A stretch of DNA of 33,076 bases, taken from Clostridia bacterium. Its GTDB lineage: Bacteria > Bacillota > Clostridia > Peptostreptococcales > Anaerovoracaceae. Location of the stretch: NCBI GenBank assembly GCA_024689865.1, contig JAILDA010000014.1, positions 1 to 33,076 of the forward strand, written 5' to 3'. The stretch's first letter is position 1, and the number at the start of each line of letters is the position of its first letter. The position numbers were made by a program, and so were the translations under genes. The notes under the pieces were generated by a model that saw only the letters and a list, made by a program, of their open reading frames with translations, ran no database searches and had not been told where the DNA came from. This document shows positions 8,499 through 33,076 of the stretch, one piece after another.

Positions 8499-9779
8499 AT
8501 GAAAAAGATCATCGCTGTTATTCTGGCGCTCGTACTGGTCCTCGGACTTGCTGCATGCGGAACGCCGGCTAACAACACCCCGGCCAACAACACCACTCCG
8601 GCTAACAACACTACTCCGGAACCGCAGGCTAAGACCTACAACGTAGGCATGGTCTGCATAGGCGACGACAACGCCGCTTACGACAGAAACTTCTACATGG
8701 CAGCCGATGCCGCCAAGGCCGAGCTCGCCAAGAAGGGCATCAACATCGAGTGGCAGTACACCTACAACCACCCGGCAGGAAAGGACGTTGCCGACGACTG
8801 CGAAAAGCTGGCCGGCGACCTGAACTGCGTAGCAGTATTCCTTAACTCCTACGGCCAGGAAGACGCGATGCTTCCCATAGCCAAGGATTATCCCAACACC
8901 GTATTCGTGGGAATGACCAACGAAGGTTCCATGAGGGACGATCTTGACAACACCGTAAACTCCTTCCCCAGCATATTCGAAGCCAGATATCTGGCAGGCG
9001 TTGCCGCAGGCTGCAAGCTGAACGAGCTCATCGAGAACGGCACCATCAAGGCTGAACAGGCTGTCATCGGTTACGTAGGCGCCTATACCTTCGCCGAAGT
9101 AGTTTCCGGCTACACCTCCTTCTATCTTGGAGCAAAGAGCGTTTGCCCCTCCGCTACCATGATCGTTAAGTTCATCGGTTCCTGGGGCGATCCTCAGATG
9201 GAAGCTACCACCGCTCAGGACCTTATCGATAACGGCGCCGTGCTGATCTCCCAGCACTCCGACTCCACCACTCCGGCTACCACCGCTCAGGCTAACAAGA
9301 TAAAGGGCACTGACGTTCCCGTAGCTCACGTAGGATACAACATCGACATGAGCGACGTTGCTCCGGAAAGCTCCATCATCTCCTCCAGAATAGACTGGAC
9401 CAACTACATGGTCTACGTCATCGAGAAGGCTGTTAAGGGCGAGAAGGTAGACAAGGACTACACCGGTCACGGACTTAAGGACGGAGACGTTAAGCTTACC
9501 GCTCTCAACGAAAAGGTAGCCGCCAAGGGCACCGCGGAAGCAATAAAGGCTGCCGAGGACGAGATCAAGTCCGGTAAGCTCCAGGTATTCGACGTTACCA
9601 AGTTCACCATCGGCGGAAAGACCGCAGAGCACGCTCTTGTGGACATGACCGGCGACTTCGTGGGCGACGAGGGATTCGACGCCATCTTCGACGGTTACTA
9701 TCACGAGTCCTACTTCAAGTCCGCTCCGGCATTCGACCTCAGAATCGACGGAATAACCCTCCTCAACGAGGCTTACTAA
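8499..9779 (+). CDS. BMP-family ABC transporter substrate-binding lipoprotein (nucleoside-type)
   Basis: This 426-residue protein begins with a lipoprotein signal (MKKIIAVILALVLVLGLAAC), and C20 is the lipid-modified residue. A low-complexity linker with three PANNT units follows, then a BMP/PnrA-like domain with landmarks ARYLAGVAAG, YVGAYTF and HVGYN. The family mostly binds purine nucleosides and passes them to an ABC permease, which fits xpt upstream and the importer genes downstream. The ribosome site AAGGAGA is strong. Codon use differs from its neighbours: isoleucine is mainly ATC here and mainly ATA elsewhere, as expected for a highly expressed protein. Hairpins and an internal promoter separate it from the ATPase gene, consistent with more binding protein than transporter being made. 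Confidence 0.95.
   Translation: MKKIIAVILALVLVLGLAACGTPANNTPANNTTPANNTTPEPQAKTYNVGMVCIGDDNAAYDRNFYMAADAAKAELAKKGINIEWQYTYNHPAGKDVADDCEKLAGDLNCVAVFLNSYGQEDAMLPIAKDYPNTVFVGMTNEGSMRDDLDNTVNSFPSIFEARYLAGVAAGCKLNELIENGTIKAEQAVIGYVGAYTFAEVVSGYTSFYLGAKSVCPSATMIVKFIGSWGDPQMEATTAQDLIDNGAVLISQHSDSTTPATTAQANKIKGTDVPVAHVGYNIDMSDVAPESSIISSRIDWTNYMVYVIEKAVKGEKVDKDYTGHGLKDGDVKLTALNEKVAAKGTAEAIKAAEDEIKSGKLQVFDVTKFTIGGKTAEHALVDMTGDFVGDEGFDAIFDGYYHESYFKSAPAFDLRIDGITLLNEAY
8562..8627 (+). repeat. PANNT micro-repeat in lipoprotein linker
   Basis: Three near-identical 15-18 base units coding for PANNT(T) follow the lipidated cysteine. They form a flexible tether between membrane and binding domain. Slippage could change the copy number. 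Confidence 0.85.
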
Positions 9780-9821
9780 TTACATTCCGGCGCAATTTAC
9801 CGCGACTGATGCAGATTAGTG

Positions 9822-9830
9822 TGATATAAT
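9822..9830 (+). promoter_or_regulatory. Extended -10 promoter before the nucleoside ABC ATPase
   Basis: TGATATAAT is an extended -10 element with a perfect TATAAT. The matching -35 position (GCGACT at about 9802) is poor, as is usual for extended -10 promoters. It would give the ATPase and permeases a transcript separate from xpt-bmp. Confidence 0.6.
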
Positions 9831-9834
9831 AAGA

Positions 9835-9868
9835 CGAAAGGGGACAGCTTGCGCGCCGCCCCCTTTCG
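9835..9868 (+). repeat. Hairpin downstream of the bmp gene
   Basis: CGAAAGGGG (9835-9843) pairs perfectly with CCCCTTTCG (9860-9868) around a 16-base loop. No T-run follows. In the read-through message it could protect the 3' end of the bmp mRNA or slow polymerase. It starts almost at the predicted start site of the internal promoter. Confidence 0.7.
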
Positions 9869-9875
9869 CCGTATT

Positions 9876-9917
9876 CAGGCCGGGATCACGATCCGGGCCT
9901 GCCCGATTTCCTCTTTT
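9876..9917 (+). terminator. Possible weak terminator/attenuator before the ATPase gene
   Basis: CAGGCC (9876-9881) pairs with GGCCTG (9896-9901). One mismatch follows, then GGAT/ATCC around a CACG tetraloop. The tail CCCGATTTCCTCTTTT is T-rich but interrupted, so termination would be partial at best. Confidence 0.45.
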
Positions 9918-9932
9918 AACCAGGAGACAGCA

Positions 9933-11465
9933 ATGGATAAAGTACATGCTGTGGAGCTTAAAGGTGTTACCAAAAGCTTCGGCAGCAACATGGCAAACAA
10001 GAACATCGACCTTTTCGTGGACAAAGGGGAGATAATGGCTCTGCTGGGCGAGAACGGCTCCGGCAAGACCACACTCATGAACATCCTCGCCGGCATTTAT
10101 CTTCCGGACGAGGGCCGCATATTCGTGGACGGAAAGGAAGTAACGATACGTTCTCCCAAGGACGCGTTCGACAACCGCATAGGCATGATACACCAGCACT
10201 TCAAGCTGGTGGATGTGTTTACCGCGGCGGAGAACATAGTGCTGGGTCTGGAAGGCACTGGCAAGCTGGATCTAAAGGCTGCGTCCTCCAAGGTGAGGGA
10301 GATAAGCAGAAAGTACGGTTTCGACATAGACCCGGACAAGAAGATATACGAAATGTCCGTGTCCGAAAAGCAGACCGTAGAGATAATAAAGGTGCTGTAC
10401 CGCGGGGCGGACATACTGATACTGGACGAGCCCACGGCGGTGCTTACGCCTCAGGAGATAGAAAAACTCTTTGCCGTAATGCGGGCCATGCGCCGCGACG
10501 GCAAGTCGATCATAATAATAACGCATAAGCTCAACGAGGTAATGGCGGTGTCGGACGTGGTGGCGGTGCTGCGCAAAGGCGAGCACATAGGCACGGTCCG
10601 CACCTCGGAGACCAGCCCCCAGGCTCTTACGGAGATGATGGTGGGCCGCAAGGTGGAGCTCAACATAGGAAGAAAGGATCCGGTGGATCCCAAGCCTCGC
10701 CTTACGATAGCCGGTCTTACGGTGCGCGACGGCGAGGGCGTAAAGAAACTGGACGACGTGGGCTTCATTGCATTCGGCGGCGAGATACTGGGGATCGCAG
10801 GTATTGCCGGCAGCGGACAGAAGGAGCTTCTGGAAGCCGTGGCAGGCCTTCGCAAGATAGAAAGCGGTTCCATAATCTACACCCCGGAGGGCAAGTCTCC
10901 GGCGGAACTTGTAGGCAAGACCCCCATGGAGATAAAGGACGCCGGCGTTGCCCTGGCCTTCGTGCCGGAGGACCGTCTGGGAATGGGCCTTGTAGGCGGC
11001 ATGGGCATGACAGGCAACATGCTTCTAAGGTCCTGGCACAAGAACAAGGGCATATTCGTGGACAGAAAGGCCCCGGAAAAGCTGGCGGCGGACGTAATGG
11101 AAAAGCTGGAGGTCGTAACTCCCGGAATCTACTATCCGGTGCGCAAGCTCTCCGGCGGAAACGTCCAGAAGGTGCTGGTAGGAAGAGAGATAGCGTCCGC
11201 GCCGTCGGTGCTGATGAGCGCCTACGCTGTCCGCGGACTGGACATAAACACTTCGTATACGATATATAACCTGATGTGTCAGCAGAAAGAAAAGGGCGTA
11301 GCGGTAATATTCGTCGGGGAGGACCTGGACGTGCTGCTTGAGCTCTGCGACCGCATACTCGTTCTGTGCGGAGGAAAGGTCTCCGGCGTTGTGGACGCAA
11401 GGACGGCCACCAAGGAACAGCTTGGGCTTCTGATGACGTCGGTAGGCGGAAAGGAGGCAAACTGA
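9933..11465 (+). CDS. Nucleoside ABC transporter ATP-binding protein (two fused ATPase domains)
   Basis: This is the cytoplasmic motor of a BMP-dependent nucleoside importer (NupA/YufO-like, RbsA architecture). The ORF track starts at 9849, but ATG 9933 has AGGAGA five bases upstream and gives MDKVHAVELKGV, 510 residues. NBD1 has Walker A GENGSGKTT at 39-47 and Walker B ILILDEPTAVLTPQE at about 161-174. Its signature, MSVSEKQTVE, departs from the usual LSVGxQQRVE. NBD2 has a lysine-free Walker A-like GIAGSGQKE, as is normal in this family, a good signature LSGGNVQKV, and VLMSAYAVRGLD where the family usually has a QPTRGLD-like sequence. ATP hydrolysis is therefore probably asymmetric. It overlaps the next gene by one base. 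Substrate inferred from context. Confidence 0.95.
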   Translation: MDKVHAVELKGVTKSFGSNMANKNIDLFVDKGEIMALLGENGSGKTTLMNILAGIYLPDEGRIFVDGKEVTIRSPKDAFDNRIGMIHQHFKLVDVFTAAENIVLGLEGTGKLDLKAASSKVREISRKYGFDIDPDKKIYEMSVSEKQTVEIIKVLYRGADILILDEPTAVLTPQEIEKLFAVMRAMRRDGKSIIIITHKLNEVMAVSDVVAVLRKGEHIGTVRTSETSPQALTEMMVGRKVELNIGRKDPVDPKPRLTIAGLTVRDGEGVKKLDDVGFIAFGGEILGIAGIAGSGQKELLEAVAGLRKIESGSIIYTPEGKSPAELVGKTPMEIKDAGVALAFVPEDRLGMGLVGGMGMTGNMLLRSWHKNKGIFVDRKAPEKLAADVMEKLEVVTPGIYYPVRKLSGGNVQKVLVGREIASAPSVLMSAYAVRGLDINTSYTIYNLMCQQKEKGVAVIFVGEDLDVLLELCDRILVLCGGKVSGVVDARTATKEQLGLLMTSVGGKEAN

Positions 11466-12544
11466 TGCACGGAAAGACTCCTTTCGTAAGGCTCACCAAG
11501 CGCGAGAACATGCCCAGGGGCAAAGTGTGGATGATACGTTTCGGATCGTTCATATTCGCGCTCCTTATAGGCATGCTAATATTTGCGGTAATAGGGGCCA
11601 AGCCGCTCAGCGCGTACGGTTCCATAATACAGGGCGCTCTGGGAAGGCGCACGGGAATACGCCAGGTAGTGCGCGACGCCATACCTCTTCTGGGAACGGC
11701 TCTGGCTCTTGCGCCTTGCTTTAAGATGCGCTACTGGAACATAGGCGCGGAAGGCCAGATAACCATAGGCGCGGTGGCTGCAACGTTCTTTGCAGTGCAC
11801 TTCAAGACCATGCCCGCCGTGGCTCTGCTGCTTATAATGGCCGTGGCCGGAATAGTCCTGGGCGGCGTGTGGGCGCTGATCCCGGCGATCTTCAAGTCCC
11901 GCTGGGGCACCAACGAAACGCTCTTTACCCTTATGATGAACTACATCGGCATAGGCATCGCAGCCTGGCTGGTGGGCGGTCCGTGGGAAGGCAAGCCCGG
12001 AAGCCAGATAATGCCTGTGTTTACCCGCAACGCAATGCTTCCCAAGGTGCTTGGGATCAACTGCGGATGGATAGTAGTCATAGTGCTTACCGTGCTGATG
12101 TTCATATACATGCGCTACACCAAGCATGGCTACGAAGTCCATGTTCTGGGCGAGTCCGAGAACACCGCCAGATACGCCGGCATGAACGTGCCTAAGATAA
12201 TAATGCGCACGGCGGCTCTGTCCGGAGCCATCTGCGGACTGGTTGGATTCCTGGTGGTAAGCGGCACGGACGGAACGCTTTACGCGGACGTTGCCGGAGG
12301 CGCCGGATTCACTGCCATAACGGTGTGCTGGCTGGCTCAGCTGAACCCATTCGCAATGATCGTGATAGCTCTGATGCTGTCCGTGCTCTCCAAGGGTGCA
12401 AGCACGCTGCAGAGCGCCATGGGAATACCGGCGTCCATAACGGACATACTTACCGGAATAATACTCCTGTCCATGCTGGGCTGCGAGTTCTTCATAAACT
12501 ACAAGATGCACTTCCGTAAGTCGTCGGATAAGGAGGCCGCATGA
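11465..12544 (+). CDS. Nucleoside ABC transporter permease, subunit 1
   Basis: This is an integral membrane permease of the BPD_transp_2 family. The ORF track starts at 11366, but the supported start is ATG 11465, overlapping the ATPase TGA by one base, with AAGGAGG seven bases upstream. The 359-residue protein has about eight to ten hydrophobic segments. It carries the family sequences RYWNIGAEGQITIGA and ARYAGMNVPKII, typical of NupB/YufP-like permeases that pair with BMP lipoproteins. It overlaps the second permease by four bases (ATGA). The two permeases would form the heterodimeric channel. Confidence 0.95.
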   Translation: MHGKTPFVRLTKRENMPRGKVWMIRFGSFIFALLIGMLIFAVIGAKPLSAYGSIIQGALGRRTGIRQVVRDAIPLLGTALALAPCFKMRYWNIGAEGQITIGAVAATFFAVHFKTMPAVALLLIMAVAGIVLGGVWALIPAIFKSRWGTNETLFTLMMNYIGIGIAAWLVGGPWEGKPGSQIMPVFTRNAMLPKVLGINCGWIVVIVLTVLMFIYMRYTKHGYEVHVLGESENTARYAGMNVPKIIMRTAALSGAICGLVGFLVVSGTDGTLYADVAGGAGFTAITVCWLAQLNPFAMIVIALMLSVLSKGASTLQSAMGIPASITDILTGIILLSMLGCEFFINYKMHFRKSSDKEAA

Positions 12545-13536
12545 TGGGTACTCTGGACTTCATAATAGCTCTTATAAGGGCAGCCGTGTTCAACGGCACT
12601 CCGCTGATGTACGGAACCTCCGGCGAGATCCTTACGGAGAAGTCGGGCAACCTTAACCTGGGTGTGGAAGGCCTGATGTTCATGGGCGGAGCCTTCGGAC
12701 TGCTGGGTGCTTTTACCTACGGCAACGCCATGGGTGACAACGCGAGCGGCGTGGTAGCCGTTATAATTGCTCTGGTATGCGCTTTTGCGGCAGGCTGCTT
12801 CGGATCGCTGATATTCAGCTTCCTTACGATAACGCTGCGCGCCAACCAGAACGTTACAGGTCTTGCTCTTACGATACTCGGCACCGGCGTGGGCCAGTTC
12901 GTAGGCGAGATGATGCGTCTTAAGGTGGGCGGCAACGTTGCGATAAGCAATGCTCTTAAGCTTGCGTTCGCAAACTCTCCGTTCCCGCAGACGCTGCAGA
13001 ACATCCCGGTCGTGGGACCGCTGATCTTCGGATACAACATATTCGTGTATCTTGGAATAATCATGATCATCGTCATGCATCACTTCCTGGCTAAGACCCG
13101 CAAGGGCCTGTATCTCAGGTCCGTGGGCGAGTCCCCGTCGACGGCGGATTCCGCGGGAATAAACGTTACCAGGTACAGATACATAGCAACGGTAATAGGC
13201 GGGGGCATCTCCGCGATAGGCGGCATGGTCTACACCATGACGATCTCCGGAACGGTCTGGAACCACACCGGTCTTTCCGGCGAAGGCTGGGTAGCCGTGG
13301 CGCTGGTAATATTCTGCCTGTGGAAGCCTATCAACAGCCTCTGGGGATCCGTGCTCTTCGGCGCTCTGCTGATACTCTACATAAGGCTGCCGCTGCCGTT
13401 CATACCCACTCAGATCTACAAGGTGGTGCCGTACATCGTTACCGCCCTGGTCCTTATAATGGTGTCCATACGCCAGAGGCGCGAGGATCAGCCGCCGGCA
13501 GCGCTGGGCACGGCATATTTCCGCGAAGACAGATAG
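12541..13536 (+). CDS. Nucleoside ABC transporter permease, subunit 2
   Basis: This is the second BPD_transp_2 permease of the importer, 331 residues and almost entirely hydrophobic. Landmarks are GTSGEILTEKSGNLNLGVEGLMFMGGAFG near the N-terminus and RSVGESPSTADSAGINV in the coupling region, both typical of NupC/YufQ-like proteins. The ATG at 12541 overlaps the previous stop (ATGA) with AAGGAGG upstream, a tightly coupled operon junction. An adjacent second ATG (12544) is possible. This completes a binding protein-ATPase-permease-permease set. The next gene starts seven bases downstream but belongs to a different pathway. Confidence 0.95.
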   Translation: MMGTLDFIIALIRAAVFNGTPLMYGTSGEILTEKSGNLNLGVEGLMFMGGAFGLLGAFTYGNAMGDNASGVVAVIIALVCAFAAGCFGSLIFSFLTITLRANQNVTGLALTILGTGVGQFVGEMMRLKVGGNVAISNALKLAFANSPFPQTLQNIPVVGPLIFGYNIFVYLGIIMIIVMHHFLAKTRKGLYLRSVGESPSTADSAGINVTRYRYIATVIGGGISAIGGMVYTMTISGTVWNHTGLSGEGWVAVALVIFCLWKPINSLWGSVLFGALLILYIRLPLPFIPTQIYKVVPYIVTALVLIMVSIRQRREDQPPAALGTAYFREDR

Positions 13537-31752: not shown

Positions 31753-31796
31753 GTCGCTCCGGATCTGTGCAGGACCCGGCGATCTGTTTTCTGCGC

Positions 31797-31825
31797 TTGT
31801 TCAAAGAAGAAAACGATGTTATTAT
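31797..31825 (+). promoter_or_regulatory. Candidate promoter of ileS
   Basis: TTGTTC (31797-31802) and TATTAT (31820-31825) are 17 bases apart, 3/6 and 5/6 matches to consensus. The expected start near 31832 leaves a leader of about 60 bases. Confidence 0.55.
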
Positions 31826-31844
31826 TAATAAGTTATGGAACAGT

Positions 31845-31859
31845 CGCCCGGAAAGGGCG
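31845..31859 (+). repeat. Small hairpin in the ileS leader
   Basis: CGCCC and GGGCG flank a GGAAA loop. The downstream bases GTAATACCCGG only loosely recall a T-box antiterminator element. There is no specifier stem and no terminator, so regulation by tRNA is not supported. Confidence 0.5.
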
Positions 31860-31892
31860 GTAATACCCGGTTCGATATAAAAGGTAGTTAAA

Positions 31893-33076
31893 ATGTACAA
31901 GAATCTTTCAGACAAACCTATCGCGCAGGTGCAGCTGGCACAGGCGGACAAGTGGGACGAGATGAACATGCTCCAAAAGTGCGTGGACCTGAGGGAGGGT
32001 CAGCCGAACTTCCTGTTCTACGAAGGCCCGCCCACCGCTAACGGCAAGCCCGGCATCCATCACGTAATAGCAAGGACACTTAAGGACTCCGTCTGCAGGT
32101 ACAAGACCATGCAGGGATTTAAGGTGCGCCGCAAGGCAGGCTGGGACACCCACGGACTGCCGGTGGAGATAGAAGTCGAAAAGCAGCTGGGATTCTCCGG
32201 CAAGCAGGACATAGAAAAGTACGGCATCAAGGAGTTCAACGAAAAGTGCAAGGCCTCCGTATTTACCTACGAGGCAATGTGGCGCAACATGACCCACCGC
32301 ATGGGCTACCTGATCGATCTGGACAACCCGTACATTACGCTGGACAACAACTACATAGAGACCGGCTGGTGGATAATCAAGGAGTTCTTCAAGGCCGGAC
32401 TCATATACGAAGGACATAAGGTAGTTCCTTACTGCCCGCGCTGCGGAACAGGACTTGCTTCGCACGAGGTAGCTCAGGGTTACAAGATGATAAAGGTAAC
32501 TTCGCTCTACGTTCCGTTTAAGAAGAAGGGCGAGGAGAACACATACTTCATGGCATGGACCACCACCGCGTGGACCCTTGCCGCCAACGAGTTCCTGGCA
32601 GTAGGCCCGGACATCGACTACGTTAAGGCGGAGCAGAACGGCAGATTCTACTACATGGCAAAGGCCAGAGTGGACGCAGTCCTGGGATCCCACGGAGAGT
32701 ATAAGATCGTGGAAGAAATGAAGGGCGCGGATCTGGAGGGCATGGAATACGAGCAGCTGATGCCGTTCGTCGAGATCCCCGGAAAGGCCTTCTTCGTAGG
32801 CACCGCGGACTATGTTACCACGGAAGACGGTACCGGAATAGTACACTGCGCTCCCGCGTTCGGCGAGGACGACTACGTTGCCGGCAGAAAGTACGGCGTG
32901 GCCGTGGTCAACCCCGTGGACGAGGAAGGCAAATACACCGCAACTCCCTGGAATGGCCGCTTCATCATGGAAGAGGGTCTGGACGTAGAGATAATCAAGT
33001 GGCTGGCTGCGGAAGACAAGATCTACGACAAGCAGAAGCTGGAGCACAACTATCCGCACTGCTGGCGCTGCGACAC
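31893..33076 (+). CDS. ileS: Isoleucyl-tRNA synthetase, type 2 (3' truncated by window edge)
   Basis: IleRS charges tRNA-Ile with isoleucine. The frame is open from ATG 31893 to the window edge (394 full codons of roughly 1,030 expected). It was missed by the ORF track because no stop is reached. The sequence is of the eukaryote-like IleRS2 type: FYEGPPTANGKPG, RKAGWDTHGLPVEIEVEKQLG, KVVPYCPRCGTGLASHEVA, and the editing-domain start MAWTTTAWTLAANEFLAV with GTGIVHCAPAFGEDDY. The class I HxGH signature, which binds ATP, here reads G54-I55-H56-H57, with the first and third positions exchanged. IleRS2 enzymes are known to tolerate mupirocin. The leader carries AAAGGT about eight bases before the ATG. 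Assignment is secure; the resistance level is inferred. Confidence 0.97.
   Translation, partial: MYKNLSDKPIAQVQLAQADKWDEMNMLQKCVDLREGQPNFLFYEGPPTANGKPGIHHVIARTLKDSVCRYKTMQGFKVRRKAGWDTHGLPVEIEVEKQLGFSGKQDIEKYGIKEFNEKCKASVFTYEAMWRNMTHRMGYLIDLDNPYITLDNNYIETGWWIIKEFFKAGLIYEGHKVVPYCPRCGTGLASHEVAQGYKMIKVTSLYVPFKKKGEENTYFMAWTTTAWTLAANEFLAVGPDIDYVKAEQNGRFYYMAKARVDAVLGSHGEYKIVEEMKGADLEGMEYEQLMPFVEIPGKAFFVGTADYVTTEDGTGIVHCAPAFGEDDYVAGRKYGVAVVNPVDEEGKYTATPWNGRFIMEEGLDVEIIKWLAAEDKIYDKQKLEHNYPHCWRCD

Follow-up and report, generated by a model that had tools for sequence, protein, structure and literature searches.

The 33,076-nucleotide stretch of DNA analyzed here (the window) closes with the 5' part of ileS, which encodes a type 2 isoleucyl-tRNA synthetase (IleRS2) with the non-canonical class I signature GIHH. 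We consider it highly probable (roughly 93%) that this is the sole housekeeping IleRS2 of an Anaerovoracaceae-type clostridium, carrying a natural GxHH motif that goes back to the ancestor of a large clade and binding mupirocin only in the millimolar range by a published mechanism. The enzyme is intact, conserved across its clade and belongs to a kind that has already been described; within this explanation, its identity, type, motif position, conservation and single copy are direct observations.

Recovery and classification of the complete synthetase

The ileS open reading frame begins at an ATG at position 31893 and runs past the end of the contig, so that the window (31893..33076, + strand) holds residues 1–394 of 1034 and the first two bases of the next codon. 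The source is a rumen/gut metagenome-assembled genome (MAG) of an uncultured Anaerovoracaceae-type clostridium (1.5 Mb in 100 contigs, 68.6% complete), in which the gene is split across two contigs: tblastn against this genome located the continuation on contig C78, which overlaps the end of the window through its opening 141 bases without a mismatch and carries the stop codon at about position 2062. The joined product of 1034 amino acids scored 975.8 bits against the ileS family model TIGR00392 (cut-off 621.4). Its best matches in the PDB were four Priestia megaterium IleRS2 structures, aligned over residues 19–1018 and led by 8C8W, an engineered GVHH mutant (~1081 bits, E=0). IleRS1 structures scored only 290–405 bits (P. 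megaterium 8C9F, 405; Staphylococcus aureus 1FFY, 395), and their alignments covered the catalytic part alone, ending near residue 800. These full-length matches to IleRS2, which take in the C-terminal anticodon-binding region, together with the weak and partial ones to IleRS1, identify the enzyme as type 2, and the fold can be regarded as settled because the sequence matches solved IleRS2 structures. The TIGR00392 and PDB results thus agree with the first-pass annotation, which had recognized an IleRS of type 2 with a published non-canonical GxHH signature. The staphylococcal plasmid enzymes MupA and MupB are homologous type 2 synthetases (the window protein is ~43–44% identical to MupA), but the protein falls well below the thresholds of their models (963.5 and 920.7 bits against 1900 for NF000257/NF000258) and is encoded by a single chromosomal-type copy.

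T-box elements often precede clostridial ileS genes. None was detected in the upstream region (window 31753–31892), nor was any other Rfam RNA, even at a permissive threshold. Elsewhere in the window, reading the open reading frames by eye revealed an apparent operon for a BMP-family lipoprotein and an ABC transporter (a nucleoside-type importer) at 8499–13536.

The GIHH signature and its surroundings

Class I synthetases usually carry the signature HxGH. At 32052..32063 (+ strand) the window reads GGCATCCATCAC (GGC ATC CAT CAC), which encodes GIHH as codons 54–57 at offset 0 from the ATG, in the context FLFYEGPPTANGKPGIHHVIARTLKD. In the alignment with 8C8U/V/W these residues lie opposite HVGH of wild-type P. 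megaterium IleRS2 and GVHH of the 8C8W mutant, whose swap is the same as that seen here; the initial claim that these codons replace HxGH is therefore upheld both by the reading frame and by the alignment. The tetrapeptide fits the G/AXHH form of this signature, in which Gly or Ala is followed by a hydrophobic residue and two histidines.

The second signature, which the first-pass annotation had proposed to look for in the rest of the gene, is of the KMSK type and was recovered with C78 as KMSKH at residues 593–597. We also considered a coupling between GxHH and the fifth residue of KMSKS, and ruled it out: KMSKS and KMSKH were both seen with either form of the motif. A threonine-rich segment (TTT, residues 223–225, at 32559..32567, + strand) sits within WTTTAWTLAAN, which we take to be the motif of the IleRS CP1 editing domain, and HCAPAFGEDD is present in the joined protein. 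The alignment further shows that Trp130 (32280..32282, + strand) corresponds to W130 in the P. megaterium enzyme, a residue adjoining the motif that has been examined by mutagenesis (PMC10485003). In contrast to the P. megaterium wild type, which combines HVGH with His582 at the adenine-stacking position and occurs alongside an IleRS1, the window enzyme has Leu585 at that place (as does Thermus thermophilus IleRS2, which also has Leu), and hence the exact mupirocin Ki cannot be transferred from the enzymes that have been studied.

Conservation among relatives and copy number

The motif lies near the end of one metagenome-assembled contig, a setting in which a sequencing or assembly error in codons 54–57 of a canonical HIGH enzyme would be conceivable. 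The relatives speak decisively against it: GIHH is present in the ileS start of all ten other genomes of the genus in which the region was recovered, every ileS sequence read in the Anaerovoracaceae-type family has G[IV]HH, and the GIHH codons differ synonymously among relatives, so that an error would have had to introduce four wrong bases across two codons in each of them. The sharing of GIHH by relatives refutes the error, whose probability we regard as negligible. The relatives with names are MAGs from rumen and gut, along with members of the Anaerovoracaceae, for example Emergencia timonensis (GIHH), and within this named set all those above ~60% identity to the window protein carry GIHH. 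The IleRS of RGIG2909 is 93% identical to that of the window.

The first-pass annotation had left open whether ileS is the housekeeping gene or one of two copies. Apart from ileS itself, tblastn of the source genome returned only ValRS-like (HMGH) and LeuRS-like matches, and no IleRS1 was found in this genome (68.6% complete), in the ten congeners (tblastn) or in the family sample. A family-wide search with TIGR00392 gave ileS matches in 167 of 167 genomes, 156 of them above the cut-off; each of the ~150 full-length matches listed came from a different genome. Given the incompleteness of the source genome, it is mainly these relatives that argue for a lack of IleRS1; taken together, the genome, the genus and the family sample indicate that IleRS2 is the housekeeping enzyme, so the first of the two options holds and a second, type 1 copy finds no support. 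The same evidence bears on the alternative that the gene is a secondary, acquired resistance copy accompanying a type 1 housekeeping gene, as in the case of mupA and P. megaterium ileS2. The incompleteness of the genome makes the missing IleRS1 a weak argument by itself, but the genome and its ten congeners have one IleRS2 and otherwise only ValRS and LeuRS paralogues, the family has no duplicated genome among the listed matches, and no mobile-element features were seen adjoining ileS. Such an acquisition is very improbable.

Distribution and phylogeny of the swap

To follow the motif more widely, we searched genomes with an IleRS2-context DNA pattern (GP[PA]xANGxP followed by four open codons, the last of them His). 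In the phylum sample the pattern matched 81 of 300 genomes, with GxHH in 31 (30 GIHH, 1 GSHH) and HxGH in 50 (HIGH, HPGH, HAGH). Matches in the phylum Patescibacteria (33 of 145 genomes) comprised 24 GxHH, 1 ALHH and 8 HxGH. Among 79 genomes of the marine group II class (archaea of the Poseidoniales type) there were 67 matches, each of them GIHH. In its main text, the 2023 paper refers to archaeal IleRS solely as a group apart (PMC10485003); the marine group II sequences read here (L100–L108 and the 67 genomes) are bacterial-like IleRS2 with GIHH in each match. Single-swap intermediates were absent from all 181 open-motif matches of the three pattern surveys, and targeted patterns for HxHH and [G/A]xGH had no hit in the 391 genomes surveyed at class level (a total of genomes with and without IleRS2). 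In one Lactobacillales MAG (SIG196, contig SVAG01000004) both signatures of a single IleRS2 are altered, to GVHH and to KMHKS in place of KMSKS.

In a maximum-likelihood tree inferred by a quick run from 82 IleRS2 proteins (LG+C20+F+G4; motif columns, 4 of 1045, kept in the alignment), the motif state has to change only 3 times, compared with 27.2 when the labels are shuffled. The Bacillota GxHH sequences, the window one included, form a single clade (SH-aLRT 100), which unites with GxHH sequences from Zixibacteria, Parabacteroides and archaea at SH-aLRT 86. The swap is therefore old and clade-wide, having been passed down from the ancestor of a large group, rather than a recent or local adaptation. 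Being unrooted and built without IleRS1, the tree does not polarize gains against losses; it agrees with the published account, in which the swap arose on two or more occasions and was reverted on one or more (PMC10485003). One HIGH sequence on a long branch within the Patescibacteria GxHH group (G630:C23:6900-10550) may be a further natural reversal.

Proposed mechanism of mupirocin insensitivity

In their collection of IleRS2 sequences, Brkic et al. (2023) described 86 with the G/AXHH motif, and they tied the GxHH swap to mupirocin hyper-resistance, with Ki values in the millimolar range (PMC10485003). The Ki of DrIleRS2 (ALHH), 6.6 mM, drops 823-fold once the motif is made canonical, and this enzyme bears the swap without a catalytic trade-off; GVHH introduced into TtIleRS2 and PmIleRS2 raised the Ki ~200- to 430-fold with a modest loss in catalysis, and the same signature swap kills IleRS1 (PMC10485003). 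According to the structures, the third histidine puts its nitrogen where that of the first usually acts, which the shifted tip of a helix in IleRS2 permits, and modelling indicates that this histidine clashes with mupirocin (PMC10485003). The window enzyme has in common with the described G/AXHH enzymes (D. radiodurans ALHH, Streptomyces griseus) the type 2 architecture, the exchange of the first and third signature positions, the PGxHH context and an intact KMSK loop; it differs in its origin from Anaerovoracaceae-type Clostridia, in having GIHH rather than ALHH, and KMSKH, and in being known from sequence alone.

Applied to this enzyme, the mechanism would run as follows. The shifted helix α1 would leave room for a histidine in the third position, enabling it to take over transition-state stabilization from the missing first histidine, with the adenine of ATP undisplaced. 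That same histidine would clash with both the pyran and the nonanoate moieties of mupirocin, leaving an active enzyme that binds the antibiotic at millimolar levels only. Catalysis through the third histidine, a millimolar Ki and resistance of the organism are thus what we infer by analogy, and near-insensitivity of both enzyme and organism is predicted. As a member of the G/AXHH group, the enzyme would be expected to go on aminoacylating while its mupirocin Ki lies somewhere from high µM to mM. Drawn from the enzymology of other GxHH and AxHH IleRS2, the resistance is a sound prediction; the literature searched contained no mupirocin assay of any enzyme or strain of the Anaerovoracaceae-type family.

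Origin and significance of the swap

Why the swap exists is a separate question, and here the chances are even that mupirocin was not involved: GxHH may be ancient and roughly neutral or catalytically equivalent, or selected by another IleRS inhibitor, with insensitivity as a by-product. Its fixation across very different habitats (gut Clostridia, 67 of 67 marine group II archaea read and most Patescibacteria), the few motif changes on the tree and the lack of a catalytic trade-off in DrIleRS2 (PMC10485003) all point this way, as does the canonical motif in the copy read of MupA, whose plasmid-borne gene is selected for by mupirocin. On the other hand, swaps shift the mupirocin Ki directly, by 200- to 1000-fold (PMC10485003), and deep ancestors may have been exposed to mupirocin-like polyketides. 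The alternative concerns why the swap evolved and not its effect. With slightly less than even confidence, we suggest that GxHH represents a second stable, ancient solution for the active site of class I enzymes, one that is fixed in whole lineages including the marine group II class and most IleRS2-bearing Patescibacteria, without viable single-swap intermediates and with the antibiotic effect as a by-product.

By this wider sampling, a large clade of gut Clostridia and the marine group II archaea are predicted to be hyper-resistant to mupirocin by default. Since the variant is widespread and was known before, the significance of the present survey is modest and lies mainly in the breadth of the motif and in the missing intermediates: a catalytic swap at two positions, with HxHH and GxGH unseen in the sampled genomes, sharpens the question of the evolutionary route.

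IleRS2 copies on mobile elements

MupA is a mobile mupirocin-resistance gene and provides the contrast case: the copy read, on plasmid pUSA03, has the canonical HAGH and is a mobile second copy, unlike the single GIHH gene of the window. We considered GxHH IleRS2 as a mobile trait and rejected it, as the true plasmid copies and two putative phage contigs that were read all have HxGH; the few read of 270 plasmid records and the phage records yielded no clear case of a mobile GxHH enzyme. A Paenibacillus plasmid IleRS2 carries HIGH, and so do the full-length enzymes of the two contigs labelled 'Bacteriophage sp.' from human faeces (MT835536.1 and MT835484.1), the first of which groups closely with Clostridia and is probably bacterial contamination. 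A Parabacteroides 'plasmid' with GIHH (NZ_OY725767) is typed as non-mobilizable and has housekeeping neighbours, which gives it the appearance of a chromosomal stretch. Finally, the IleRS2 of Sutcliffiella horikoshii plasmid pBH-BAT-167 (HAGH) adjoins genes for thiopeptide-type bacteriocin biosynthesis and a CBASS phospholipase, and may be a self-resistance copy.
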